NCBI GenBank assembly: GCA_963678675.1
Contig: OY783200.1
Location: forward strand, 17,848,603-17,912,602
Direction: 5' to 3'
Source: Xiphydria camelus
Lineage: Eukaryota; Arthropoda; Insecta; Hymenoptera; Xiphydriidae
DNA length: 64,000 bases
Shown here: positions 8,617 through 63,881 of the stretch, one piece after another
Layout of the letters: each line of letters opens with the position of its first letter
Position numbering within the stretch: position 1 is the stretch's first letter
Program-made: the position numbers and the translations under genes
The notes under the pieces: generated by a model
What the model saw: the letters and a program-made list of their open reading frames with translations, nothing else
Told to the model about the DNA's origin: nothing
Database searches by the model: none

Positions 8617-9437
8617 GTTGGAGGAGGAGGAGGAGGAGGACGAGGACGAGGACGACGAGGTCGACGGGGACGACGATGACGAGGACGGCGACGACGAGGA
8701 CAGCGATGACGAGGAGGACGACGACGAGGACAACGACGACGAGGACGGCGACGACGAGGACCACAATGACGACGAGGACCACGATGACGAGGAGGACAAT
8801 GAGGACGGCGACGACGAGGACGACCACGACGACAAGGACGAGGACGAGGACGAGGACGACGAGGACAATGAGGATGGCGACGACGAGGACGAGGACGAGG
8901 ACGGAGACGGGGACGATGAGGACAATGAGGACGACGACGACGAGGACGACGAGGACGAGGACAGGACGGCGACGATTAGAACAACGACGACGAGGTCGGC
9001 GACGACGAGGAGAACGGAGACGAGGATGATGATGATGAGGACGACGACGAGGACGACGACGAGGACGACGACGATGAGGACGGTGACGACGAGGACCACG
9101 ATGACGAGGATGGCGACGACGAGGACCACGACGACGAGGACGGCGACGATGAGGACGGCGACGACGAGGACAGCGACGACGAGGACGGCGACGACGAGGA
9201 CCACGATGACGAGGACGACGAGGACGAGGACGATGACGACGACGACAACGACGACGAGGACGACGACGACGAGGACAACGATGACGAGAACGGTGACAAC
9301 GAGGACGACGACGATGAGGAGGACGACGACGGCGAGAACGAGGACGGCGAGGACGAGGACGAGGACGAGGACGGCAAGGACGAGTTCGGCGACGACGAGG
9401 ATGGCGACGACGGGGACGGCGACGACGACGTGATGCT
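8617..9437 (+). repeat. GAC/GAG trinucleotide tract, about 820 bp
   Basis: Nearly unbroken GAC, GAG, GAT and GGC triplets. The plus strand starting at ATG 8564 reads through a short leader and then well over 100 Asp/Glu codons, losing the acidic frame near 8962. A one-frame change lets acidic reading resume near 9015-9437. The minus strand reads as Val/Leu- or Ser-rich frames, which are artefacts of the triplet composition. GC content is far above the flanks. It could be a genuine Asp/Glu-rich coding repeat, but the frame break and lack of flanking domains favour an expanded microsatellite. Confidence 0.85.
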
Positions 9438-13429: not shown

Positions 13430-15169
13430 CCCCCACAAAAACAGATTCTCTGTAAAAAAAGGCGGCATGTTCATTCAGTGCCAACAAAAATTGATACCTA
13501 CGTAAAATACTCTCCAAAAAAGATTTAAATCAATTAAGATCGCCATGTTCAAGATTTATATATAAAAAGTAAAAGGCATCATTTGAAAGGAAAGTTATTG
13601 TAAATCAAGTTACTAAAAAATTCGACTAAAAAATTTATAAACAAATTTTAATAAAAAAGAACTTGCCGCGTTTAAGTTTTCATATTTAGTCCACTATACC
13701 GAATAATTGGCAGTGCTTGGACGGTGTTAGAATAATTCATAAATTGCACTGCCGAAGTCAAATTCAGAGAAATTCAGAAGGCCCCCGCCTGATTGGTTTC
13801 CCGTGCGACATTCGATATACTGGTGATATCATATAAGTGTATGAATTTATTTAAAATCATAAGTGCATAAACATCGAGTATAATTCTGTCTGAATTTTTT
13901 ATTTTGAAGGAAAAAAACGCGGCAAGTTCTTTTTCATTAAAATTTGTTTATAAATTTTTTAGTCGAATTTTTTAGTTACTTGATTTACAATAATTTTCCT
14001 TTCAAATGATGCCTAATTGGGTCATTCCATACCAAATCGGACACTTTTTGGAGTAACATTTCGAATTTTGCTCAAATTTGGATATATTGTAGTCTTTGTC
14101 GATGTTTAACCGTATCTCGAAGGATTTTTCAAAATTTTGAAAATTGTTGATTTTACAGCCACTTGAAGAATAACGCTGCTTTTTTTTCATTAAATTATAA
14201 TTATCAAACCGGTTGTCGGCTGAGAATAATCTTTTGGATACTAAAAGTGAAAGAGTTGAAAAACCAGAGAAAAATTGCATCAATCAAAAAAAAAATTTTT
14301 TTAATAATTTTATTTGCAATTGATTTAAACAAATGACGTATTTTCATAGCTGGCCACTTTTTAAAAATCTGAAAAAAAGCAAGCATATACTTTGATATCC
14401 TCTCTTTAACGACAAACAAACAAAAATAACGACACTTTAAAATTGACGACACAAAAATTAATTGAAGTTGACGCCGCGTCGGAATTGGCACGTCGACCCC
14501 GCCGCCAGCCACCGGTCGGTGGGTTCGACTCGCTTGGCGACACGCTGGTGGCGGGGCCGACGCGGCGTCAACTTCAATTAATTTTTGTGTCGTCAATTTT
14601 AAAGTGTCGTTATTTTTGTTTATTTGTCGTTAAAGAGAGGATATCAAAGTATATGCTTGCTTTTTTTCAGATTTTTAAAAAGTGGCCAGCTATGAAAATA
14701 CGTCATTTGTTTAAATCAAGTGCAAATAAAATTATTAAAAAAATTTTTTTTTTGATCGATGCAATTTTTCTCTGGTTTTTCAACTCTTTCACTTTTAGTA
14801 CCCAAAAGATTATTCTCAGCCGACAACCGGTTTGATAATTATAATTTAATGAAAAAAAAGCAGCGTTATTTTTCAAGTGGCTGTAAAATCAACAATTTTC
14901 AAAATTTTGAAAAATCCTTCGAGATACGGTTAAACATCGACAAAGACTACAATATATCCAAATTTGAGCAAAATCCGAAATGTTACTCCAAAAAGTGTCC
15001 GATTTGGTATGGAATGACCCCTAGTTTACTTTTTATATATAAATCTTGAACATGGCGATCTTAATTGATTTCAAACCTTTTTTGGAGAGTATTTTACGTA
15101 GGGATCAATTTTTGTTGGCACTGAATGAACATGCCGCCTTTTTTTACAGAGAATCTGTTTTTGTGGGGG
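13430..15169. mobile_element. Foldback element with about 245-bp arms, interrupted by a second palindrome
   Basis: Left arm 13430-13672. The right arm is split into 13915-14013 and 15024-15169. The left arm runs without a break from CCCCACAAAAACAGATTCTC through ATATAAAAAGTAAAAGGCATC to CTTGCCGCG. The right arm mirrors this but is interrupted exactly between the ATGATGCC and TTTACTTTTTATATA parts by the 14016-15021 insertion. The loop (13673-13914) has no gene. Confidence 0.85.
14016..15021. mobile_element. 1.0-kb palindromic element nested in the foldback arm
   Basis: Ends read GGGTCATTCCATACCAAATC and its complement just inside both edges, each flanked by TA (14014-14015 and 15022-15023). 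Arms of about 467 bp (14016-14483 and 14556-15021) are nearly identical, with a GC-rich 72-bp spacer. The spacer edges read CCCCGCCGCCAG and CTGGTGGCGGGG, giving another stem at the centre. Because the arms mirror each other, opposite-strand open frames of 130 codons appear as twins. They are a symmetry effect. The TA flank fits Tc1/mariner-type insertion. Confidence 0.88.
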
Positions 15170-15899: not shown

Positions 15900-16339
15900 C
15901 TGGTTGGTCTCTTAGCTGACAAGGGGACCCTTCGAAAGTCGGAGCACCGATTGTAATGAATTTTTTTTTATAAATAAAGGGAAGTCCCCTGAGTAACGCT
16001 CATACTTTACTTTTGTCCAATGCGCCTTTGTTTATTTAAAAAAAAAGAAATTGTTTTGACGCGTAAAGTGTGTACTGTAATGTAATACTCGGTATCCAAG
16101 ATAACGGCGTGGCGCAGTCGATTCCCGTGCATGCACTCTTTTTTTTTTTGCCAATTTCGAACTTTTTCACTTTTTTTATTATTCAAACTATTGCTACTAA
16201 TCTTTAGAAGTAAAATAAATCTAGGTAACGTGAATAAAAAAATTTTTTGCATTTAAAACTATATTTTGAACGATTGTTACTAATCATTCGAAGGCAAATT
16301 AGTGAAGTTTTGGTGACAATTTCTATGCTTCACATTAAA

Positions 16340-16576
16340 TGACGTCAATGCCGGGTAAGTGCAAATTACTCATTTTCCTACGAAACATTCATTAAATTTG
16401 GTGGTAATTCACTCGTGACGTCAACACCGGGTAAGTGTCATTCGAAGGCAATTAGTGAAATTTTGGTAACAATTTCTATGTTTCACATTAAATGACGTCA
16501 ATGCCGGGTAAGTGCAAATTACTCATTTTCCTACGAAACATTCATTAAATTTGGTGGTAATTCACTCGTGACGTCA
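16340..16576 (+). promoter_or_regulatory. Four TGACGTCA (CRE-type) sites at 76-77-bp spacing
   Basis: Perfect TGACGTCA octamers start at 16340, 16416, 16493 and 16569. The first three continue as ACGTCAAYRCCGGGTAAGTG. The octamer is the classical CREB/ATF binding site. Spacing of 76, 77 and 76 bp reflects a tandem repeat: a 154-bp unit (16284-16437 and 16438-16590) that is itself a diverged doublet. The array lies directly upstream of the 16632 ORF. Each GGGTAAGTG is also a consensus splice donor, and TTCATCACCAG at 16620-16630 is a plausible acceptor. The regulatory role is inference. Confidence 0.5.
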
Positions 16577-16631
16577 ACACCGTCAATCTCGAGAAGACGC
16601 AATCAAGATCCACTCAATTCTTCATCACCAG

Positions 16632-16919
16632 TTGAGTGCGCCCGCATTCACCGAGATGATTAAATATGCGTGGTTTGCGTCTAAATTGATAGAAGAAAGA
16701 CCTTTTTTCAATAATATAAATGATGTCTGTTTCCCATTGAGCAATTTGAAACAAAAATGTAACTGCGGTTCTGTAACGTTTATGAAATGTGCTTGGTGTA
16801 AAGAGATTTTGTGTTTTAAGTGTTTATATGATATTTATCATCCTAAAGTATGTAAGATGTCGGCCCCAGAATCACCATCGGAATCGTCCGATGGAATTAG
16901 CGATAAGTATACCAATTAA
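16632..16919 (+). CDS. Small cysteine-rich (RING/zinc-ribbon-like) ORF in a TIR element
   Basis: The open frame runs 16632-16919. The first AUG is at 16656, giving about 87 residues. A splice acceptor-like TTCATCACCAG ends exactly at 16630, so it could instead be a terminal exon. Counting from 16632, metal-ligand candidates are C43, C45, C53, C56, C61, C64, H70 and C74 (QKCNCGSV, MKCAWCKE, LCFKCLYDIYHPKVC). This spacing suggests two zinc sites. A short acidic, Ser-rich tail follows. Similar Cys/His-rich tails terminate some cut-and-paste transposases, so it may be the last remnant of one or a stand-alone DNA-binding product. I cannot name the family. Confidence 0.55.
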   Translation: MSAPAFTEMIKYAWFASKLIEERPFFNNINDVCFPLSNLKQKCNCGSVTFMKCAWCKEILCFKCLYDIYHPKVCKMSAPESPSESSDGISDKYTN

Positions 16920-17089
16920 ATTTAAAATTTCACTTGTTACGAATAAATGAAAATGCTTTTTGTAATTGAACGTGTTTAAATTTTGTTTTTTCGCCTTACC
17001 TAGATTTATTTTACTTCTAAAGATTAGTAGCAATAGTTTGAATAATAAAAAAAGTGAAAAAGTTCGAAATTGGCAAAAAAAAAAAGATA

Positions 17090-17168
17090 GTGCATGCACG
17101 GGAATCGAACGCGGGACGCCCGCGTGGTAAGTCTATGCCTTAGCCGACTGCGCCACGCCGTTATCTTG
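17090..17168 (-). tRNA. tRNA-like (SINE or pseudo-tRNA) inside an inverted-repeat arm
   Basis: On the minus strand, TGGCGCAGTCGG (17155-17144) matches the A-box consensus exactly and CGTTCGATTCC (17111-17101) matches the B-box at 10 of 11. Spacing is tRNA-like at about 32 bp between boxes. The T-stem pairs poorly (CCGCG against CCCGT), so a functional tRNA is doubtful. The mirrored left arm (16102-16137) keeps GGCGTGGCGCAGTCG fused to ATTCCCGTGCATGCAC. It lacks everything between, consistent with deletion at a shared TCG. Confidence 0.45.
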
Positions 17169-17497
17169 GATACATTACAGTACACACTTTACACGTCAAA
17201 ATAATTTCTTTTTTTTTAAATAAACAAAGGCGCATTGGACAAAAGTAAAGTATGAGCGTTACTCAGGGGACTTCCCTTTATTTATAAAAAAAAATTCATT
17301 ACAATCGGTGCTCCGACTTTCGAAGGGTCCCCTTGTGAGTCGCGTGCACGCAAAGATACGAGTGACTCGAGAAAGGCCCCCCTGATCTCCCGGTAGCTGT
17401 CAATTCGGGAGATCGAAGCATGTAACCTCGAAATCAAGTATACAAGTGATAAGATAATAATTATTCGGGTTTCTTCGGTGAGTTTCCCCAAGTGTTT

Positions 17498-17684: not shown

Positions 17685-17753
17685 ATTATTATTTTTTCTT
17701 TGTCGATATATTTCCTCTCTTTCGTATTATACTATCCCAAGTTCGAATTTATA

Positions 17754-18566
17754 CCGTATGTCCTATGGCCAACCGCGCAGGTGAGCTCCGACCTGAATTC
17801 TTGACTTCGGCAGTATTTATGGTACAGTTAGAGTGGGCTTCAGACGAGTGCGCTGCATAAGAACGAAAAGTGTCGACTGCTCTTCTAATAGCTGTCAATT
17901 CGGGAGATCGAAGCGTTTCGTGTAACCTCAAAATCGTGAAGTTTTGAAAATTAGTAGTGAATAATTTGTAGAAGTGATGAGAAATAATCATAAATAATCT
18001 TCCGAATTGACACCTTAAGTATCGCTCACGCCACTTCGCAAAACTACTTCCTAGACACGCGCGGTGCTAGCGCGGAAATAATTTCTGAAACAAATAGGCA
18101 TGAGGCGTGTAATTCGGTTGGACATCGAAAAAACCCGAATGATTATTAATTCTCACTTCTGAACATTACTTACCATTTATTCAAAGATTCACGATTTCGA
18201 GCTTAGACTTCGATTTCCCGAATTGATAGCCATCGGGAGATCAGACGTTTCACACTTTTCGTAAGAACGCAGCGTAAGAGCGAAAAGCGTCGTCTGATTT
18301 CCCGATGGCTGTCAATTCGGAAGATTATTTATGATTATTTCTCATCACTTCTACAAATTATTTACTACTAATTCAAAACTTTACGATTTTGAGGTTACAC
18401 GAAACGCTTCGATCTCCCGAATTGACAGCTATTAGAAGAGTAGTCGACCCGTTTCCTTCTTATGCAGTGCACTCGTCTGAAGCCCACTCTAACTGTACCA
18501 TAAATACTGCCGAAGTCAAGAATTCAGGTCGCAGCTCACCTGCGCGATTGGCCATAGGACATGCGG
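17754..18566. mobile_element. 0.8-kb long-TIR element, copy A
   Basis: TIRs begin CCGTATGTCCTATGGCCA (left) and end TGGCCATAGGACATGCGG (right), flanked by TATA on both sides. Arms of about 257 bp (17754-18010 and 18308-18566) frame a centre with its own hairpin at 18218-18320. The arm-derived frames that read SPELTAIRR in both orientations are mirror artefacts. A nearly identical copy lies at 62922-63722, about 45 kb away. TATA is self-complementary, so a TA or a TATA duplication both fit. Confidence 0.9.
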
Positions 18567-18881
18567 TATACCGACCTGTCAAACGTGAAGTGTACATGTA
18601 CATCACTTTTATTTCATCTCTTCTTCGCTTCTGGTATAATCATTTACATCCCACCAAGCACGTTTTTGCAAGTAACTTTTCTGTAACATTCCTGCGATAT
18701 TTTGCAATATTCGTGAATACTACCGTATGTTAGAAATATATATTTCTTGATAAATTCGCGAATGTTGCAAAATATCATAGAAACATTTCGGAATCATTAC
18801 ATCGAAAGATTTCCTCAATAAGGTACAGCTCGATAAGATTGCACTTGTCAGAGCTGAATTATATGGGAGGGGGTTGAAATA

Positions 18882-34940: not shown

Positions 34941-35254
34941 TAAACTAACACGCTTGAAAACTAATCACACTATGAAAAACGAATAATGTGCAAATTTTAA
35001 TTGCAAAGGCAACAATTTCAATCTTTCACGAGTTTGTTATTCTCGTTATAACCACCACATGAACACGTTTCATTGGTTTACCGGTTGCTACGCATATAAA
35101 CGATAAGCATTCTTGACAGATTTAAACTCATATTAAAGCATATTAAATTGTCTTTCAAACAGCACATTTCTTTTTTGATCTGATGAATAGTTTCTAAAAA
35201 ATATACAGTTAAAGTCAAAAGTTTACAGTGGGCCGATTTCTATGCACGCAAGTG
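34083..35254 (-). mobile_element. Tc1-like element, 3' end truncated
   Basis: The 5' terminus is intact at 35254: reading inward it begins CACTTGCGTGCATAGAAATC, a typical Tc1 end, with TA outside at 35255-35256. The 3' terminus is missing, since homology stops at the coding end near 34083. The right flank begins directly with LINE coding sequence, so the Tc1 may have landed in an existing LINE copy. Confidence 0.8.
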
Positions 35255-35256
35255 TA

Positions 35257-36670
35257 GATGCTTTCCGAGTGCTTGGAAGAAATCTATTATCCTACCGATC
35301 GGCAAAGTCCCAGCCCCATCTACAACTAATGACTATCGACCCATCTCGCTGCTGCCCATACTGAGCAAGGTCTTTGAGAGACTAATCTACAACCAAGTGA
35401 TCGCATATGTCAATCTACACGATCTCTTAGATCCGTTCCAGTGCGGTTTGCGCGCTGGTCATAGCACTCAAACGGCCTTGGTTAAACTTGTCAACGACAT
35501 CAGACACAGTATGGCCAAGAGGCAAGTCATGGTGCTGGTACTGTTCGACTTTGCCAAGGCCTTCGATACAGTCTCGCATGGTTTGCTATTACTCAAACTT
35601 AAACGTCTGGGCTTTGCTGATCACACTGTCCGATGGTTCGCGTCACACATGCAGGGATGATGGCAGGCAATCAAAAAATGTGATGGCACTCTCACTAGCT
35701 GGATGGCCACCAATACTGGAGTTCTACAGGACTCCGTTCTGGGTATGCTGCTATTCTCTATCTTTATTAATGATATTGGGTCAGTCATAAAAAATGCTAA
35801 GAGGCTAATTTACGCGGATGATCTACAAATCTATCGGAGCTGTCGCTCTGAGGAGATTGATAGTTGTATTATGAGTCTCAACGAGGACATTGGCAGAATT
35901 AAACGATGGGCTAGTGTCAATTCGCTGAACCTTAACATCAGCAAAACCAAAGCGATTATTCTTGGAAATAAGCGACTCATTAACTCGCTTAAATCCTCGG
36001 ATCTCCCACCGTTAAGTTGTAACTCTGAGCTTATACCTTTTGTCTACTCTGTCGAAAACCCGGTGTAATCCTCGACTCCAAGCTCACTTTCAAGGAGCAC
36101 GTTCAACATGTCACCTCCAAAGTCAACCGAGTCTTCTATCAGCTGCAATAAATGAGGCCATATACCGATTCAGACCTACGGAAAACTTTGATTAATTCTC
36201 TGATTTTACCTCATTTAGAATACTGCTCAATTTTTCTCAATGGCTGTGGAGCCACCCTTGACCTCAAGCTACAACGACTCGTTAACCGTGGTATTCGCTA
36301 CATCTTTGAACTACCACGCGATACCTCAATCAGCTCCCATAGAATCAAGCTTGGCTGGCTGTCAGTTGAAAATCGACGCAAACTACACCTAGCAATCCTT
36401 ACTTATAAGGTTCTCAACACGAGAGAACCTGAGTTTTTGGCCGATTTACTCTTTTACTACACCACGCGAGCCACCAGTCTCTCTACACATGCCCTTACAT
36501 TAACTACTCCTCCTCATCGGACAGACTCTTATAAAGCTTCTTTTGCTATCCCTGCCCCCTAGGTGTGGAATGCCTTCCCTAGGGAAGTTCTCGAGGCTCT
36601 CTCACTCGGCTCTTTTAAGATTAAAGCTCAACGGTGGCTACTGGACGCTGATAGAAACTGTAGTTAATTA
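35257..36670 (+). pseudogene. LINE reverse transcriptase, frameshifted
   Basis: Visible RT blocks: NDYRPISLLPILSKVFERLI, FQCGLRAGHSTQTAL, motif A FDFAKAFDTVSH (Asp near 35546), then a frame change at about 35658, TGVLQDSVLG (Asp where Gly is usual), motif C YADD at 35811-35822 with both Asp intact, then SLNISKTK-like region. A second frame change near 36055 leads to VILDSKLTFKEHVQHVTSK, a TAA at 36149 and the C-terminal LPHLEYCSIFLNGC and RLVNRGIRYIFELPRDT. A stop at 36562 precedes VWNAFPREVLEALS. No endonuclease domain is present. Confidence 0.9.
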
Positions 36671-38360: not shown

Positions 38361-39354
38361 TATAAGTGGCATGTTGAATTGTGTAGTTCTTGCAATGAAA
38401 GACAGGTATTTACACTGTAAAACGGTATTCTGTACTATTTTGATCCCGCGGATAACTTATATTATGTGAAATATTACTAATTACTCCATTTATTAAGTAT
38501 TTTGTACTAAATTCTGTGTTTTCTGTGTACAGTTCACAATATAATCTCACCAAATGAAGCACCTTACATTACTATTACTTTCTCAGCCAAGACGCGCATC
38601 TCGACCGTCATTTTCGCAATAACGTTCGTCCTATAAGTGTGTTAAACAGTACTACGACGGCATCGTAGATAAATACTCGCTTCCCCTACTAGTCCAAGAG
38701 CCAGAGCCAAAAAAGGTCTCTGAATTTAATAAGCCCAGTTTTTTTATAGTTTATTACAGTGGTTGTGTAGACAAACATACTGCGGTCAGTCAAGCGAAAG
38801 CTGGGGCATATGTCTCAGGGACGCTATCAAAGTTGTCGTTCCTGCCGGGGTAATAATTTGAATTTAATAAGGTTGAAAATCGGTATACAACTTGTATATT
38901 GCATATAAATAAAGGTTACGAAGTCAGTCAGCTGAATGTGGGGGCGGAGCTGGTCAGTCAGCAAAAAAAGAAATGTTAATTTCGCGCGCGCTCGGCGTTG
39001 CAGGCGATTTCAAATCAGAGTATAGAAAAGAGCGCAGGTATACTCGTAGGGGGGGTAAGAGACAATAGCTCGGGGTCTGTTCCGTCGCACCGAGCGTACA
39101 CATAGGTCGTAAATATCACGGACAATTCGTTAACAGCCATCTCCCGCAGTACCCGCTTTGACCGGTACCGTCATAAAAGTGATCCGAGCCGGCTAAAGGA
39201 GAGGAGTGTCCGATGTAGACGATGAACAATTGGGGAATTTTGATACTTAGTTTTTCCATTTCGCCAGCGTCATCGACATCCTTCCCCTGGCCGATCAGGG
39301 TGCGTCGCGTCGCGTCACGTTAGCCCACGCTATCCCTTCCATTGGGCTACGATG

Positions 39355-39395
39355 CGAATATATAAATCGGGGCTAAAAGCGTGTCCTTCAATGTA
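39355..39395 (+). promoter_or_regulatory. TATA-type core promoter candidate
   Basis: ATATATAAATCGGGG at about 39358-39372 is a good TATA box and lies about 115-125 bp upstream of the ATG at 39484. A start near 39390 would leave a leader of about 95 nt. The box lies at the inner edge of the inverted arm, so its mirror in the right arm points the other way into the core. Confidence 0.4.
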
Positions 39396-39483
39396 CTATC
39401 AACCATCAAGTGTCGTGTCTCAATTCGTGTTGTATTGAACAATGGTTAAACCGTAGTGAGTGACGCATGTGTTTCGTTTCAAA

Positions 39484-39873
39484 ATGAACAAAATTTGTGT
39501 ATTCTGCCTCAAGAAGTATCAGCTATTAATATCATTTACAGAGAAGACTTTAACAAATTGTAAAGCAATTTTACGAATTCGTGCAAAATATAATTTAACG
39601 TATGACAATATATCTTTGCCGTCGAATCCAGGACAAATTGAGTGCTACCATGTAGTTTGCTACAGAAAGTTTACGGCTTTAAGTAAAAAGTATAGACAAG
39701 AGTTAAGGTAAGATACAATTCAATATAAACATTTTGTGCATGCTCAAAATAGTTTATTTCGTACTTATTATCGATATGACTTGAACACCTATTGAAGTAA
39801 GAAGTTGCGTTGTTGACGTTTAAGCGAAATCAACGAATTTGATGATTCGGAGGCAGAATTTGATAATGAATGA
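39484..39873 (+). CDS. Two-exon small zinc-finger-like protein in long-TIR element
   Basis: Exon 1 runs 39484-39707 (an in-frame upstream ATG is at 39460). The frame would stop at 39709, but the stop overlaps a strong donor, AAG|GTAAGA, at 39708. Acceptor GACGTTTAAG ends at 39824. Joining 39707 to 39825 keeps the frame for 15 further codons to TGA 39871-39873, for 90 residues with an acidic tail (EINEFDDSEAEFDNE). Metal-ligand candidates are C5, C8, C54, H56 and C59 (KICVFCLK, IECYHVVCYRKF). A C2HC-type finger with a long loop is plausible. Family unrecognised. The intron is 117 bp. It may bind element ends, but that is speculation. Confidence 0.5.
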
Positions 39874-40647
39874 GTTATTAAAATATTATTTGTAATGTCT
39901 ATTCTGTACATATATAATACATTTTCAATATTATTATATTATAATTAATTAATAGCCTATTGAATCTAGTTCGTTAAATAATAATTTATATATTCGTATC
40001 GTAGCCCAATGGAGGGGATAGCGTGGGCTAACGTGACGCGACGCGCCCTGATCGGCCAGAGGAGGGATGTCGATGACGCTGGCGAAATGGAAAAACTAAG
40101 TATCAAAATTCCCCAATTGTTCATCGGCGGCATCGGAAACTCCTCTCCTTTAGCCGGCTCGGATCACTTTTATGACGGTACCGGTCAAAGCGGGCACTAC
40201 GGGAGATGGCTGTTAACGAATTGTCCGTGATATTTACGACCTATGTACGCTCGGTGCGACGGAACAGACCCCGAGCTATTGTCTCTTACCCCCCCTACGA
40301 GTATACCTGCGCTCTTTCCTATACTCTGATTTGAAATCGCCTGCAACGCCGAGCGCGCGCGAAATTTACATTTCTTTTTTTGCTGACTGACCAGCTCCGC
40401 CCCCACATTCAGCTGACTGACTTCGTAACCTTTATTTATATGCAATATACAAGTTGTATACCGATTTTCAACCTTATTAAATTCAAATTATTACCCCGGC
40501 AGGAACGACAACTTTGATAGCGTCCCTGAGACATATGCCCCAGCTTTCGCTTGACTGACCGCAGTATGTTTGTCTACACAACCACTGTAATAAACTATAA
40601 AAAAACTGGGCTTATTAAATTCAGAGACCTTTTTTGGCTCTGGCTCT

Positions 40648-41324
40648 CCGACTATACCGCGTAGTTCCCTGAAACTGAAGAACATTTGCGATAATGCTAA
40701 TTTTATTTTCCACACCCCGCAATTGGGGATATATAGCCTCGTCATATTTAAAAATGTGCATAATGGTCCCTCGACATGTTTGTGTATACACTGCACGCGA
40801 GAGAGACAGAGAGAGAAGGAAAGCATACAAGAGAGGGCGATACGATACGAGCGAATGGTCTGTGCCTACCTGCTTACCTCCGCGCGCGGATTATTGGGGA
40901 ACGGAATATAAGATGATACGACTCTTGCGCGGTATACACCTCGGAGAAGTCGTGCCGAGGGATTAAAAATCCTGGCATTTTTTTTGTGCGGGGAGATCGT
41001 AAATACGCGATTTGTCCGGGACAGACTTCACCTTGGCGGTGCACCGGTTAAGTTAATACGTCCCTACGTCTCTTCCTGAGTCTTTTCTATGCCGCGGCGC
41101 CAGGGAGGAGGGTGGAGGGGGGGGGGGGGGGGGGCTTAAGTCGTGAAACCCGCATCGCGCACTTCTTAATCGCTCGTCGATGCCACTTTTTCGAACGACC
41201 AATGCGCGATGACTCGATGGCCGTGACCTCGCTAATAAATTTTGCCCGCGCGGTTTGTCATCAGAAATAAGAGGGAAAAGGAATTTTGTTTTTTTTTGGA
41301 TCGATGTCGTTTATATTAGCGTCG
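40648..41324. other. CpG-rich stretch with poly-G run
   Basis: A GAGAGACAGAGAGAG run near 40800-40815 and about nineteen consecutive G near 41117-41135. CpG-dense around 40880-41240. No exon is assignable. Confidence 0.45.
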
Positions 41325-48799: not shown

Positions 48800-49468
48800 T
48801 AGTCCAGGCGTCAGGGGTTTTATTGACCCAAAAATTCGTAATGGAGATTTTTTGTTTCTATTGCTTCTTTTCATGTTTAAGTAGACAAATATCAAAAACG
48901 GCCACCAAAATTCGGTCCGGAACACATTGTTTAAACAAATGGAAGGGGAAATTTTATTGTTTTCGTAGATATCTCCGAAAATATTTATTCTACGGAAAAA
49001 TTATAAAAAAACTACATTGTTCAATACTAAGTTCTCCACAAAAAAGGTATCTACATTTTTTTCAATCAGAGCAATAGTTTTAAAAATATAACCCTGCGAA
49101 AGAGGCATGCGGCGCTCAAATTCTTGCATCACGCCAGTGGAGGAGAGTGCTTCGATCGAGTGAGTCTACGATATATGGAAAACAGTTTAAATAATTATTT
49201 TTTGGGAAGGAATTTCAAAGGAAAAAAATTAGTAGAATAACGGAACAGTATTCGATCTATTCAAAATATGTACTACACAAAAGCCCTTTTTTTACTCAAT
49301 ATTTCTTCTCTTTCGTTAAGGTTCAAGCTGCGGCGATAGTGCCAGAAGTTCTACCATCAGTTCCAGATGCCCCAGTTTCCTCAATTCCCTCCATTTCTTC
49401 AGTTTCTCCAATGTCTTCAGAGTCTTCAACCTCGTCATCGGACATATAAATGGTCAAAAACTCTTCTA

Positions 49469-51096
49469 CACTGTTAGAAGTTTCTATTAGGAAATCACAA
49501 TAAATGTAATGGAAGCATTTTTACAAACACGAGTGTACAGTAAAACTAATGCATAATGAGGTGTTAGGAATTCCGAAATCGTTGTATTTTAAAATCACAA
49601 CACTCTTTGTGTGGAAAAGTAGAAGCGCTCTTCGGTACTGTGAAATTCAAAAGATGAGGTGTTGTGAAATCACAATACTCGTTTTACGAAACCGAAGTAC
49701 TCGAGTATACCAGAAAAAGTACACATGTGTATAGAAAATTATAAACGCGTGTTATATATATATAAAATATTGCAAGACGTTGACTAAAATCGATATACAA
49801 TTGTGCATTAATTATAGCATACGGGTATAGTACTTTTCGTACCACTGCTATGAATTTGCCACCCGTATGATGTCTATGGAATTTACTATACACATGTAGT
49901 GAGAAAGTAAGGACTGTAATAATATAAATAGCAAAAATTCTTTTAAAAATATTTATATTCAAGAATTTTTTTACACCAATTCTTCGACAAGATCTTCTAT
50001 TGCATCTGTGCGATCACGCAATGCATCGCACAGTTTTTTGACCGCAGGTTCGTATATAGTTCCTTTTCTCTTCGATCGAAGCGGTCTTTTATTTCCTGTT
50101 GGGGGATTTATGTCCAAAAGCCATCTGGAAAATAGAAGAAGGCATTTTTTCATAATGTATCGAAAATATATATTTATTTATTAATAATATTAATTAATAT
50201 TAATATTATTAATATTTATTTAAAAATGTTAATGAAGTTTAAGAGATTAAAAGAAAATTAAAATTAACATAAATTCTGATATCGTATTAAAAGTGTAAAA
50301 TATGTATAAAACCGTTTTTTACACAATTTTTAAAGATCTTAGTTTTCTAATTTTTCCCGAGAAAAAAATAATTGTGCAATTTAAGATGATCAACAAAAAT
50401 TATTTTGATATAAAAATTGAAAATTACATACCTTCTTTGTATGAATTCCAAGGATTTTGTTAAACCTTCTGGATAACGAATTCCAAATACAAAATATGTC
50501 AAGAAACTGACAAGAAATCCCCCAAGAAGGTATAACGCCTTCTTTAACGCTGCATGAACACACAATTGTACACATGGCATATGCATATGAATATCACAGT
50601 CATACTCGTAAGTAAGAATAATGTACTTACCTATTTTATTCCTTATTTCCTATTTTGGAGGAGCAAGTGATAAAAATCGCGCACAAACTTTTTCGTCTTC
50701 AATGCGATGCGTTGCAGTGGACACGCAAACGCAAACTAAACCGACGACGCTACTGAAACATCACAATGTATTGTGAATTCAAAAGAGCCGTTTTAGGTTT
50801 TTCCCATACATGTTTTAAAACCAAATATGGGTATTATTTTTTCAAACGCTGTTGTGAAATACAAACACGACGTTAGGAATTCAGAGTGAACGTTGCTTAT
50901 TTAAAGAGATAGTGATTAAATAAAAGTACGAGTTTTTTATTTCCTAATATGTGTTTGGAAATCAAAACGAAATTTGTGATTTTTAAAGTTTTGTAGTGAA
51001 TTCAAAGTTTGCTTATTAAAATTAAAAATGTATTTTTGAATTTCCTACACATCCGTATAGTGTCATATTGTGAAATCACAAACACTTCTAACAGTG
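49469..51096. mobile_element. 1.63-kb CACTG-ended element (CMC/CACTA-like) with TA duplication
   Basis: Ends CACTGTTAGAAGT and ACTTCTAACAGTG, flanked by TA (49467-49468, 51097-51098) in the host ORF. The 250-300 bp inside each end carries many copies of GTGAAATCACAA-like and GAATTC-like short motifs in both orientations. Such subterminal repeats are typical of CACTA/EnSpm relatives. The interior has a candidate spliced gene on the minus strand but no transposase. Mirage-type CMC elements use a TA target, a tentative match. Confidence 0.7.
49971..50586 (-). CDS. Two-exon candidate gene inside the CACTG-ended element, 102 codons
   Basis: Exon A runs 50586-50432 and exon B 50124-49971. The donor is AAAGAAG|GTATGT (50432/50431) and the acceptor ATTTTCCAG|ATGG (50125/50124). 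Joined, the frame stays open: 51 codons plus AG, then an A completing Arg, then 50 codons to TAA. The first half is hydrophobic (ALYLLGGFLVSFLTYFVFGI), compatible with one membrane segment. The second is charged (NKRPLRSKRKGTIYEPAVKK, RDRTDAIEDLVEELV). An upstream intron is also possible (donor at 50630, acceptor at 50550), but then no start codon remains in frame. Function unknown. It might be a TE passenger or a captured host fragment. Confidence 0.4.
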
Positions 51097-52059
51097 TAGA
51101 TCAATATCAATGGCTTCGTCGACGTCTTCTTCTATCTTAATTTCTATTTTCTTGACATCAGTGCAACTTTAATCCTCGCAATGGGGGCAGATAATCGAAC
51201 AATTTAAGCCAAGCTTACGACAACCGCACTGTCCCTTGCATCCACTTCGGCAACTGCAACTTATCATCTTCAGCAATGCTGGTAGTGCAGCTTCCTTCTC
51301 CATGGTTACTGGGAACAAACCGTTGACAGTACGTTTTCAATCCCATTCTGTTGGTTCCAAATGAACGTCTTGCCACAGCTCTGTATTTTATAGTAGACTC
51401 TATATGAATGTTGCCGTGCTGCTGTCCGAGTAGGTGGCAAAGAAGCTAGATTGTATGATTTTTTGGATACTGCATTTTTGAAGCACAGAAATCTCCATTC
51501 ATCCAAGTAATACCTATTTTTTGTTCGTGCTCCATATAAAGCAATATGTAATAAATTTTTCCCAAGCGATTTCTAGGAAGTTTCGAAGCCCACGCGGCGC
51601 GAGAGTTACTGAGTCGGACGCGAGCGGCCTCTCTCTCTTTCGCAGGGTTATATCTTTGAAACTATTGCTCCGATTGAAGAAAATGTAGATACTTTTTTGG
51701 TGGAGAATTTAGTGCCGAACAATTTAGTTTCCTACCATTTTTTCGTAGAATGAATATTTTCGGAGATATATGCAAAAAAACACTAAAATCTACCCTTTCA
51801 TTTATTTAAACAATATATTCCGGATCGAATTTTGGTGCCCGTTTTTGATATTTGTCTACTTCAACATGAAAAGAAGCGATAGAAAAAAAATCTCTCTTAG
51901 GAATTATTCGAACCATCGACTGATTTTAGACCTCTGACGCCTGGACTAAACGTGAAATATTCACTCTTCTGGAGTGGAAATTCACTCCAAATAACATTGG
52001 CCTACTTTTTACTCCATAAGAGTGGCTTCCATATAGTCATGAAAGCTCTATTCCGATAA

Positions 52060-60182: not shown

Positions 60183-60746
60183 TCCTCGTGACAATTGAAT
60201 TACGACTTGTGACCGCGCGCGTCGCCTTCGTTACCACCGCCCGGATAATTCGGGCAGATCGAGAGAAGAACAGTGGCGATCGCTTTCAATCGCAGAGCTC
60301 TTCCACTGGACTTTGCGCGCGCGGACTCTCGGCTATGCGGAGCGAGCCGACGGGCTTAGTTATGACTCGGTCACCTGCCACCGGCCCACCGTTAATGAAA
60401 CATGAATTTTACGATCAAATCTGGTGGTGCTGCTGCTTTGCCTCTGGTCGTAATAAATAACGGGTGGTCCGTAGATCTGGCATAATGGCGTTCGAGGGAG
60501 CGGACGTCCGTACCCTCTGCCGGCCGCGCGGAGAGACGGTCGCGTCGTCTCGGATGTGTTTTGCCTCGCTGCATTTCTAGAAGAGAGGCCATCAATGAGC
60601 AGCTATCCGATCGGGATCGGTACGTCGAATTCTGATCAGTGGGAATGAAGGATATTGGAAGAGAAAGAATAAGGTGGTGAGATCTCGAAAAAGGGAGAGG
60701 GTGGGATATATTTGGGGCACCCGTACAGGTAAATCGCACTTCGCAA
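60183..60746. other. CpG-rich intergenic DNA
   Basis: Frames on both strands at 60188-60790 overlap each other and look composition-driven. Confidence 0.35.
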
Positions 60747-60748
60747 TA

Positions 60749-61464
60749 CAGGGTGTTACTTAATGATAGGCCGTAATTGCAAGGGCACATTACTGAATCA
60801 ATTTCCAGTAGAAAAGTTCATATTAACATGTGTCCTAAAATGTCTGGTTTTCAAGATACAGGACGTTAAAGTTTAAAAAAATCGGTTTTTTTTAATAATA
60901 TCTCAAAGATCCTTGTGCCGATTTTATTGACATTTGGCACTGTTGTTTTTTGTAATAAGACGCTAAGTTACAAATGAACTAGAAGATAATTATGAGTTCC
61001 AGTGGCGTCCCGGGGGACAGTCTCACGAATAATAATTTTTTCCTCAAAAACAAAGTGAGGTACGAAGTAATGTCAAGAGACAAAAAAGTTGTATTTTTAG
61101 CTGCTTAATCTGAAAAAAATATAAAATTTTTTAAAAAGTCAGTGGCGCACACTTTTTTTGTCAATATTATTCGTGAGACTGTCCCCCGGGACGCCACTGT
61201 GGAACTCCTAATTAGCTTCTATAACTAGCGTCTTAGCGTCTGCTAACTTAGCGTCTTATTACAATAAATAACAGTGCTAAATGTCAACAAAATCGGCACA
61301 AGGATCTTTGAGATATTATTAAAAAACCGATTTTTTTTTAACTTTGACGTCCTGTATCTTGAAAACCAGACATTTTAGGACACATGTTAATATGAACTTT
61401 TCTACTGGAAATTGATTCAGTAATGTGCCCTTGCAATTACGGCCTATCATTAAGTAACACCCTG
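60749..61464. mobile_element. 716-bp palindromic element with TA duplication
   Basis: Ends CAGGGTGTTACTTAATGATA and complement, flanked by TA (60747-60748, 61465-61466). Arms 60749-61035 and 61163-61464 match over their whole length (TCTGGTTTTCAAGATACAGG, GATCCTTGTGCCGATTTT, CCCGGGGGACAGTCTCACGA). The right arm carries a short extra CTAACTTAGCGTCTTA duplication. No ORF. Confidence 0.9.
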
Positions 61465-61591
61465 TATAAAGAAAAGAGTCTCGTTGTATGATGCTTTGTC
61501 TTAGAACAAGATCCGGACATCAAATTCTGCTTATAAGAAAAAAGGGTTCCTTGTAATATTTATGGCTTTAAGGAAGAATTCTGGCATTTAA

Positions 61592-62672: not shown

Positions 62673-62917
62673 CTATGCAAAAAGTCTACAGTGTACATGC
62701 ACCTTGGGCCTACATAGGTTGCTCTGATTTAGCCCTGTGTAGAAATTCTTTTCGGGTTTTAATAAGGGCCTGACCGTTTGGCTTCATTTATAGTCAGGCT
62801 TCGATGAGGAAAAATAATGAGAGCCCTGAGAGATACATTAAAAAACACCTATACGGGACCCTCTGCAAAGATAATGTCGTTAAGTACCACTGGAATTTAA
62901 TTGATGCAGTTAAGCTA
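62673..62917. other. Intergenic DNA
   Basis: No gene seen. The overlapping short frames extend into the inverted arm to the right. Confidence 0.4.
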
Positions 62918-62921
62918 TATA

Positions 62922-63722
62922 CCGCATGTCCTATGGCCAACCGCGCAGGTGAGCTGCGACATGAATTCTTGACTTCGGCAGTATTTATGGTACAGTTAGA
63001 GTGGGCTTCAGGCGAGTGCGCTGCATAAGAACGAAAAGTGTCGACTGCTCTTCTAATAGCTGTCAATTCGGGAGATCGAAGCGTTTCGTGTAACCTCAAA
63101 ATCGTAAAGTTTTGAAATAATTTGTAGAAGTGATGAGAAATAATCATAAATAATCTTCCGAATTGACACCTTAGGTATCGCTCACGCCACTTCGTAAAAC
63201 TACTTCCTAGACACGCGCGGTGCTAGCGCGGAAATAATTTCTGAAACAAATAGGCATGAGGCGTGTAATTCGGTTGGACATCGAAAAAACCCGAATAATT
63301 GTTAACTCTCACTTCTGAACATTACTTACCATTTATTCAAAGATTCACGATTTCTAGCTTAGACTTCGATCTCCCGAATTGATAGCCATCGGGAGATCAG
63401 ACGTTTCACACTTTTCGTAAGAACGCAGCGTAAGAGCGAAAAGCGTCGTCTGATTTCCCGATGGCTGTAAATTCGGAAGATTATTTATGATTATTTCTCA
63501 TCACTTCTACAAATTATTCACTACTAATTCAAAAGTTTACGATTTTGAGGTTACACGAAACGCTTCGATCTCCCGAATTGACAGCTATTAGAAGAGCAGT
63601 CGACACTTTTCGTTCTTATGCAGCGCACTCGTCTGAAGCCCACTCTAATTGTACCATAAATACTGCCGAAGTCAAGAATTCAGGTCGCAGCTCACCTGCG
63701 CGGTTGGCCATAGGACATGCGG
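62922..63722. mobile_element. 0.8-kb long-TIR element, copy B
   Basis: Ends CCGCATGTCCTATGGCCAAC and complement, flanked by TATA (62918-62921, 63723-63726). It matches copy A (17754-18566) along its whole length, including the inner GATAGCCATCGGGAGATC hairpin, with only scattered differences and one short deletion. Different flanks show two independent insertions. Confidence 0.9.
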
Positions 63723-63726
63723 TATA

Positions 63727-63881
63727 TAGGTTGCTTCTTATATCAAACGATTCAACGCGACTACTGCAGTCAATGTCCAGAAATGTGCTTGGCGGGCCCG
63801 TGCCTCAACAAATTGGGAAATGTATCATAACTTTATTACAATATTTTTCATGCTACTGGGGTACTTCTTACAGTTAAAGTA
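63727..63881. other. Short unique stretch
   Basis: Open in one plus-strand frame that begins in the TIR arm of the neighbouring element. No domain. Confidence 0.4.

Follow-up and report, generated by a model that had tools for sequence, protein, structure and literature searches.

A long-armed inverted-repeat element of Xiphydria camelus and its probable origin by internal deletion of an AcademX-type DNA transposon

An inverted-repeat element with a coding core

A 64,000-nucleotide stretch of the Xiphydria camelus genome (GenBank assembly GCA_963678675.1, contig OY783200.1, forward-strand positions 17,848,603 to 17,912,602; hereafter the window, whose numbering is used throughout) contains a 1,965-bp inverted-repeat element that spans 38690–40654, begins with TAGTC and ends with GACTA. 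Its left arm, a terminal inverted repeat (38690–39367, plus strand), starts with TAGTCCAAGAGCCAGAGCC, and its right arm (39984–40654, minus strand) reads TAGTCGGAGAGCCAGAGCC from the outer end; the arms measure 678 and 671 nt and are 96.9% identical (678 alignment columns, two gaps). Their limits follow from the arm alignment, from copies elsewhere in the genome and from a count of exact ends. Arm alignment and core analysis delimit a core of 616 nt (39368–39983, plus strand; 30.5% GC), and the sequence and the copies elsewhere reveal a TAC target-site duplication on the left (38687–38689) and on the right (40655–40657), to which no strand applies. A preliminary description had recognized near-identical arms of about 670 bp around a 0.6-kb core, in agreement with these data; the span it gave, 38697–40647, captured the element and fell 7 nt short at each of the ends that other copies define. 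It had also reported a TATA box in the core region, and a TATAAA is indeed present, at the inner end of the left arm (39361–39366, plus strand), where it is a candidate judged on sequence alone.

Within the core, an open reading frame of 75 codons (39484–39711) carries the motifs CVFC and ECYHVVC. On the basis of homology, core analysis and a structural model, we assign 39484–39707 (plus strand; protein P0001) to exon 1 of a putative AcademX-type transposase gene, encoding a C2HC zinc-finger-like N-terminal domain. The stop codon of the frame overlaps a phase-2 intron-1 donor, GTAAGA (39708–39713), which was placed by eye on the sequence and holds the in-frame TAA. The retained 5′ part of intron 1 (39714–39823), 15 codons with a stop (39825–39873) and a 3′ untranslated part (39874–39983) follow, all on the plus strand. 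Joining 39707 to 39825 stays in frame and yields a product of 90 amino acids, so that the acidic second segment noted earlier is real, as is the overlap of donor and stop. The window copy contains no transposase frame, again as first described.

How strongly does the reading frame itself argue for a coding past? When the core was shuffled 5,000 times with dinucleotides preserved, 3.6% of the shuffles contained an ATG-started frame of at least this length, 1.5% a looser Cys/His pattern and 0.1% both. Length alone is weak evidence, because the whole window holds 49 ATG-started frames of at least 75 codons. Across eight genomic sequences compared, C5, C8 and C59 are invariant, H56 is replaced by Tyr in one (L075), and C53, the first cysteine of the C-x-H-x2-C motif, varies; the earlier proposal of a zinc-finger-like exon stands. 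In a 15-sequence comparison, C8 is missing from P0128, and the truncated P0129 has neither C5 nor C8. The domain model is compact and confident (pLDDT 87.4); a Foldseek search with it returned nothing at E 0.001 (best E 3.6), and comparison with the insect zinc-finger-associated domain (ZAD) gave 10% identity and a Z score far under the reliable level. The 90-residue product gave only two Pfam matches, far below cut-off, and no useful match in the protein collection or among PDB sequences; viral contigs and Rfam likewise yielded nothing useful.

A young and mobile family

The genome of origin (357 Mb, 38 contigs) was searched for relatives. With the left arm as query, all 40 matches scored out of 715 candidates cover the whole arm at 98–100% identity. 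Exact matches to its 27-nt end number 93 in forward and 87 in reverse orientation, and the reversed control has none, which corresponds to some 90 copies with exact ends. A perfect 3-bp duplication flanks 43 of 43 fetched copies in which both ends fit the search pattern (which does not capture copies whose ends are altered, such as L010), and in 19 of them it is TAA/TTA. The element is mobile and multicopy, as had been supposed, and far from the single-copy occurrence that would have spoken against this: it belongs to a young, non-autonomous family of about 90–100 members.

In 8 of 35 near-full-length copies (5 of 40 having been dropped for insufficient length), the arms have exchanged their outermost parts with respect to the core, a change that recombination between long inverted arms would be expected to produce. 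Such swapping, the long inverted ends and the lack of autonomy are shared with foldback and other long-repeat elements and with miniature inverted-repeat transposable elements (MITEs). A MITE is a short element without coding sequence. Copy number and inverted ends would suit an ordinary MITE or a chance palindrome; the length of 1,965 bp, the 670-nt arms, the remnant of a transposase exon and a traceable parent make either reading barely credible. The preliminary description had already judged the arms too long and too similar for an ordinary MITE.

The search for exact ends also points to the loci C10:16789045-16806370 and C6:28278212-28281081. L031 on contig C1 and L041 on the small contig C3 have identical breaks and match coordinates, like a duplicated or unplaced haplotype piece.

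Origin by internal deletion

A decayed longer copy of the same family on contig C29, in the region 17941300-17951420, extends beyond what the window element has kept. One of its pieces, L091, corresponds to element positions 1000–1134 at 98.5% identity and then continues into more intron and into transposase exon 2, with one in-frame stop; the other, L092, starts to match at position 1134 (96.6%), reads ...TSDRESEIKEFDDSEAEFDNE-stop over the junction point and runs out 97 nt inside the right arm. Element position 1134, at 39823/39824 (plus strand), is where both pieces join, with one shared A. These matches indicate that an internal deletion made the window element: its junction is visible, and both sides are traceable to a longer element. 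The untranslated part (39874–39983) comes from the parent, and the 15 codons come from the 3′ end of the transposase gene, of which they most likely form the C-terminal tail, to judge from core analysis and L092. On C29, they directly follow the conserved ending ...FDWFKGDQLP... in another frame, which implies an intron or a frame break of the decayed copy in between; a possible acceptor, ACAG, is visible there.

A second family took the same course. The 1.8-kb inverted-repeat element of the L073 family consists of the 5′ end (98.0% identity) and the 3′ part (96.6%) of the longer L082/L083, with 4,868 bp missing and 30 nt unmatched at the junction, in a comparison that covers the longer element's 3′ end up to its outer 171 nt. 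The pieces L091 and L092 lie 9,490 nt apart, with a transposase piece bearing two stops between them (C29:17943381-17944469); because this distance exceeds the roughly 5 kb missing from L073, the C29 copy probably holds an insertion.

The AG at 39823–39824, which had been proposed as the acceptor of the gene's own splice site, coincides with the deletion junction. Conceivably, the deletion created a working acceptor, and the spliced 90-residue protein, a zinc finger with an acidic tail, is a real product. The phase-2 donor is common to the relatives, and a join from 39707 to 39825 puts the tail back into its own reading frame, Ser codon included. Against this stand the by-product nature of the AG and its poor pyrimidine tract (TTGTTGACGTTTAAG), the one-in-three chance of a matching frame, and the fact that the 75-residue form is complete without splicing, so that we regard a functional splice as possible though doubtful. 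The segment from 39825 onward is a genuine in-frame acidic stretch; as the second exon of a compact gene it does not hold up. What had been taken for a compact gene protected in a giant palindrome is a remnant exon 1 with part of intron 1, fused to the 3′ end of the same gene.

Several longer loci were considered as parents and rejected. The break at the intron end in L014/L029 reflects another transposon nested at a TTAA site: the intron-1 remnant of the window-family copy on C6 harbours, at L029:1150-3938, an element of 2.8 kb, which we take to be a Kolobok, with GGGGTAAGGCCACCATG ends and a PF20700 transposase. The long end-to-end distance at C1:27134150-27143180 is due to an element of roughly 7 kb that is nested in a window-family copy, within its right arm (L089:639 to L090:1446). 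This element has TAGTCTAGTCAAATGG ends, an ATA duplication and a nuclease-like frame with KEDADT, and belongs to the TAGTC group as a further, more distant relative. At C1:20617506-20624606, also long from end to end, exon 1 is split over two places (only the start, L032, was read).

Longer relatives and their transposase

Of 270 candidates found in the genome with the exon-1 protein, 150 were scored as matches; among those listed, about 99 are window-family copies (hand count) and the rest belong to related families at 45–54%. In two of these families, L078/L079 and L075, long transposase frames lie downstream of exon 1. L078 starts with TAGTCGGGGAGG, ends with GACTA, has GTA on both flanks and is 7,603 bp long by arithmetic; the alignment of its two arms extends over 627 columns with a match of 93.9%. 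The TAGTC ends, the 3-bp duplication and the long arms of the derivative are consequently traits of the group and not specific to it, which explains the giant palindrome. The order of exon 1, gap and long frame recurs in L082 and L084–L087 (L086 is nearly identical to L084). A search of the protein collection with P0002, a protein piece of L078, found 316 homologues, and the 120 of them that were listed include proteins of ants, beetles, butterflies, sawflies and a limpet. One butterfly protein, P0014, judged by eye, combines the exon-1 domain at its N-terminus with the transposase in one chain.

In L074, L076, L077 and L080, all of the L073 family, the first CxxC has been lost through small changes. 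Among the exon-1 matches listed, 24 carry a TGA of the L076/L077 kind versus 19, at 49–54%, without that change (hand count).

Might the zinc-finger-like frame be cargo, that is, a host-like or captured gene retained for its own function? It is open in most copies, and the protein collection contains short predicted proteins of the exon-1 domain (P0123–P0129), which may, however, be mere gene calls on exon 1. The domain heads a transposase gene in L075, L078, L079, L082 and L084–L087, as it does by eye in P0014, and the decayed longer copy has both sides of the deletion; we consider cargo very improbable.

A transposase sequence profile found one chance-level match among PDB sequences. The modelled transposase of a relative is predicted to fold into a P-element-like core and an EXO1/FEN1/XPG-like nuclease. 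The predicted fold provides a transposase of the DDE/RNase H type with a nuclease fused to it, which we take to be of the XPG type expected of AcademX. Duplications of the 3–4 bp appropriate to AcademX were found in the window family, in 4 of 4 L073-family copies whose two ends fit the pattern, and, as GTA, on the 7.6-kb relative. The AcademX lineage of Academ is characterized by a 3-bp target duplication and a DDE-like core with a nuclease (PMC10045372), which agrees with the window family's duplication and the relative's predicted domains; the window copy differs in having no transposase. By target duplication and predicted domains, the source element is most probably an AcademX-type DNA transposon.

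From parent element to derivative, and the fate of exon 1

We conclude, with a probability of about 0.93, that the element is non-autonomous and descends from an AcademX-type DNA transposon by internal deletion; the preliminary description as a whole is partly supported. The full-length relatives have long terminal inverted repeats that open with TAGTC, generate 3-bp A/T-rich target duplications and encode a transposase with the small zinc-finger-like domain in exon 1 and, further on, the predicted P-element-like core and XPG/FEN-like nuclease. A deletion fused intron 1 (39823) to the gene's 3′ end (39824), 15 codons ahead of the probable transposase stop. As both ends were kept, transposase supplied in trans could excise and insert the derivative, which may in this way have spread to about 90–100 copies. 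Any exon-1 product would putatively comprise 75 residues unspliced, or 90 if the junction AG serves as an acceptor.

Has the exon been maintained for its product? In 36 copies ascertained by their arms and containing a whole core, exon 1 shows 5 synonymous, 8 nonsynonymous and 2 stop changes, which fits no selection (P 0.27–0.47). It is intact in 26 and broken in 10 of these copies; several broken copies share one stop or one frameshift, so that broken versions were amplified as well. Distinct changes per site are fewer in exon 1 than in the non-coding core (15/224 versus 40/338), a difference that is not significant (P 0.059). Purifying selection on exon 1 is undetectable in the 36 copies. 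An apparent signal in 52 pooled copies (11 synonymous, 9 nonsynonymous, 2 stop) was rejected, because 16 of them had been picked from a protein-similarity table. Five partial cores and 14 duplicates had been removed ahead of both counts. Decay of the frame at the pace of flanking DNA, named at the outset as evidence against a functional gene, is largely what we see, since exon-1 changes look neutral, in a family that is not single copy.

An alternative role is suggested by the P element, in which a retained intron yields a 66-kDa repressor and other repressors, among them the 207-residue KP, can come from short elements (PMC7776569). By analogy, exon-1 protein made by a derivative, and by intron-1 retention in full-length copies, might bind or poison the transposase, damp its own family and have aided the spread of derivatives. 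The stop inside the intron-1 donor means that intron retention would yield an exon-1-only protein; this arrangement is ancestral, common to the relatives and present in 6 of 7 families compared, the window family included (donors placed by eye). The compact domain model, the amplification of exon-1-only derivatives in two families (window and L073) and the absence of stops from 60 of 83 near-complete window-family exon-1 matches among those listed (hand count) point the same way. The proportion falls to 60 of 99 when 16 truncated or frame-broken matches are added, and the neutral pattern of changes, the amplified broken versions and the missing CxxC in L074, L076, L077 and L080 weigh against repression. 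A KP-like role is possible but unlikely, and selection lends it no support. Less probable still is a built-in brake of AcademX-type transposons in which intron retention in full-length copies, and internal deletion in derivatives, would supply exon-1 protein that pairs or competes with full transposase; if true, it would be a second, independently evolved self-limiting circuit of the P/KP style, in a group with a P-like catalytic core.

Relation to known elements

The likeness to KP and other internally deleted P elements is that of a deletion derivative with both ends and the N-terminal zinc-binding part of a transposase gene, descended from a parent with an intron whose retention would truncate the protein and with a catalytic core that is P-like by predicted fold. 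The differences are equally clear. Target duplications of the P superfamily are 8 bp long, in contrast to 3 bp in all 43 window-family copies; P repeats measure 31 bp versus 670-nt arms here; the N-terminal domain is unlike that of P; and repression is known for KP and only hypothetical in this case. From foldback elements the window element differs, as from MITEs, by its traceable parent and coding remnant.

The window element belongs to a new family of AcademX-type internal-deletion derivatives, and its origin is unusually clear; a partial literature search found no report of Academ derivatives that keep exon 1. A puzzling gene in a palindrome becomes the documented birth of a non-autonomous element, for which a single genome holds the junction, both of its sides in a decayed longer copy and about 90–100 young offspring. 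A corollary is that, with the same first exon kept by two related families and a stop within the donor in 6 of 7, P/KP-like repression becomes testable outside the P superfamily.

Other features of the window

The window contains 43 inverted-repeat pairs of at least 40 nt. Two near-identical 821-bp foldback elements (17750–18570 and 62912–63732) lie 44 kb apart, with arms of about 260 nt that are 94–95% identical, and more long inverted-repeat structures occupy 13430–15169, 15916–17339, 48800–51948 and 60746–61467. Reverse transcriptase pieces with RPISLLPILSKVFERL and YADDLQIY, presumably of a non-LTR retrotransposon, are found at 35187–36562. A long tandem repeat of the GAC/GAG type, open in several frames on both strands, extends over 8620–9430.
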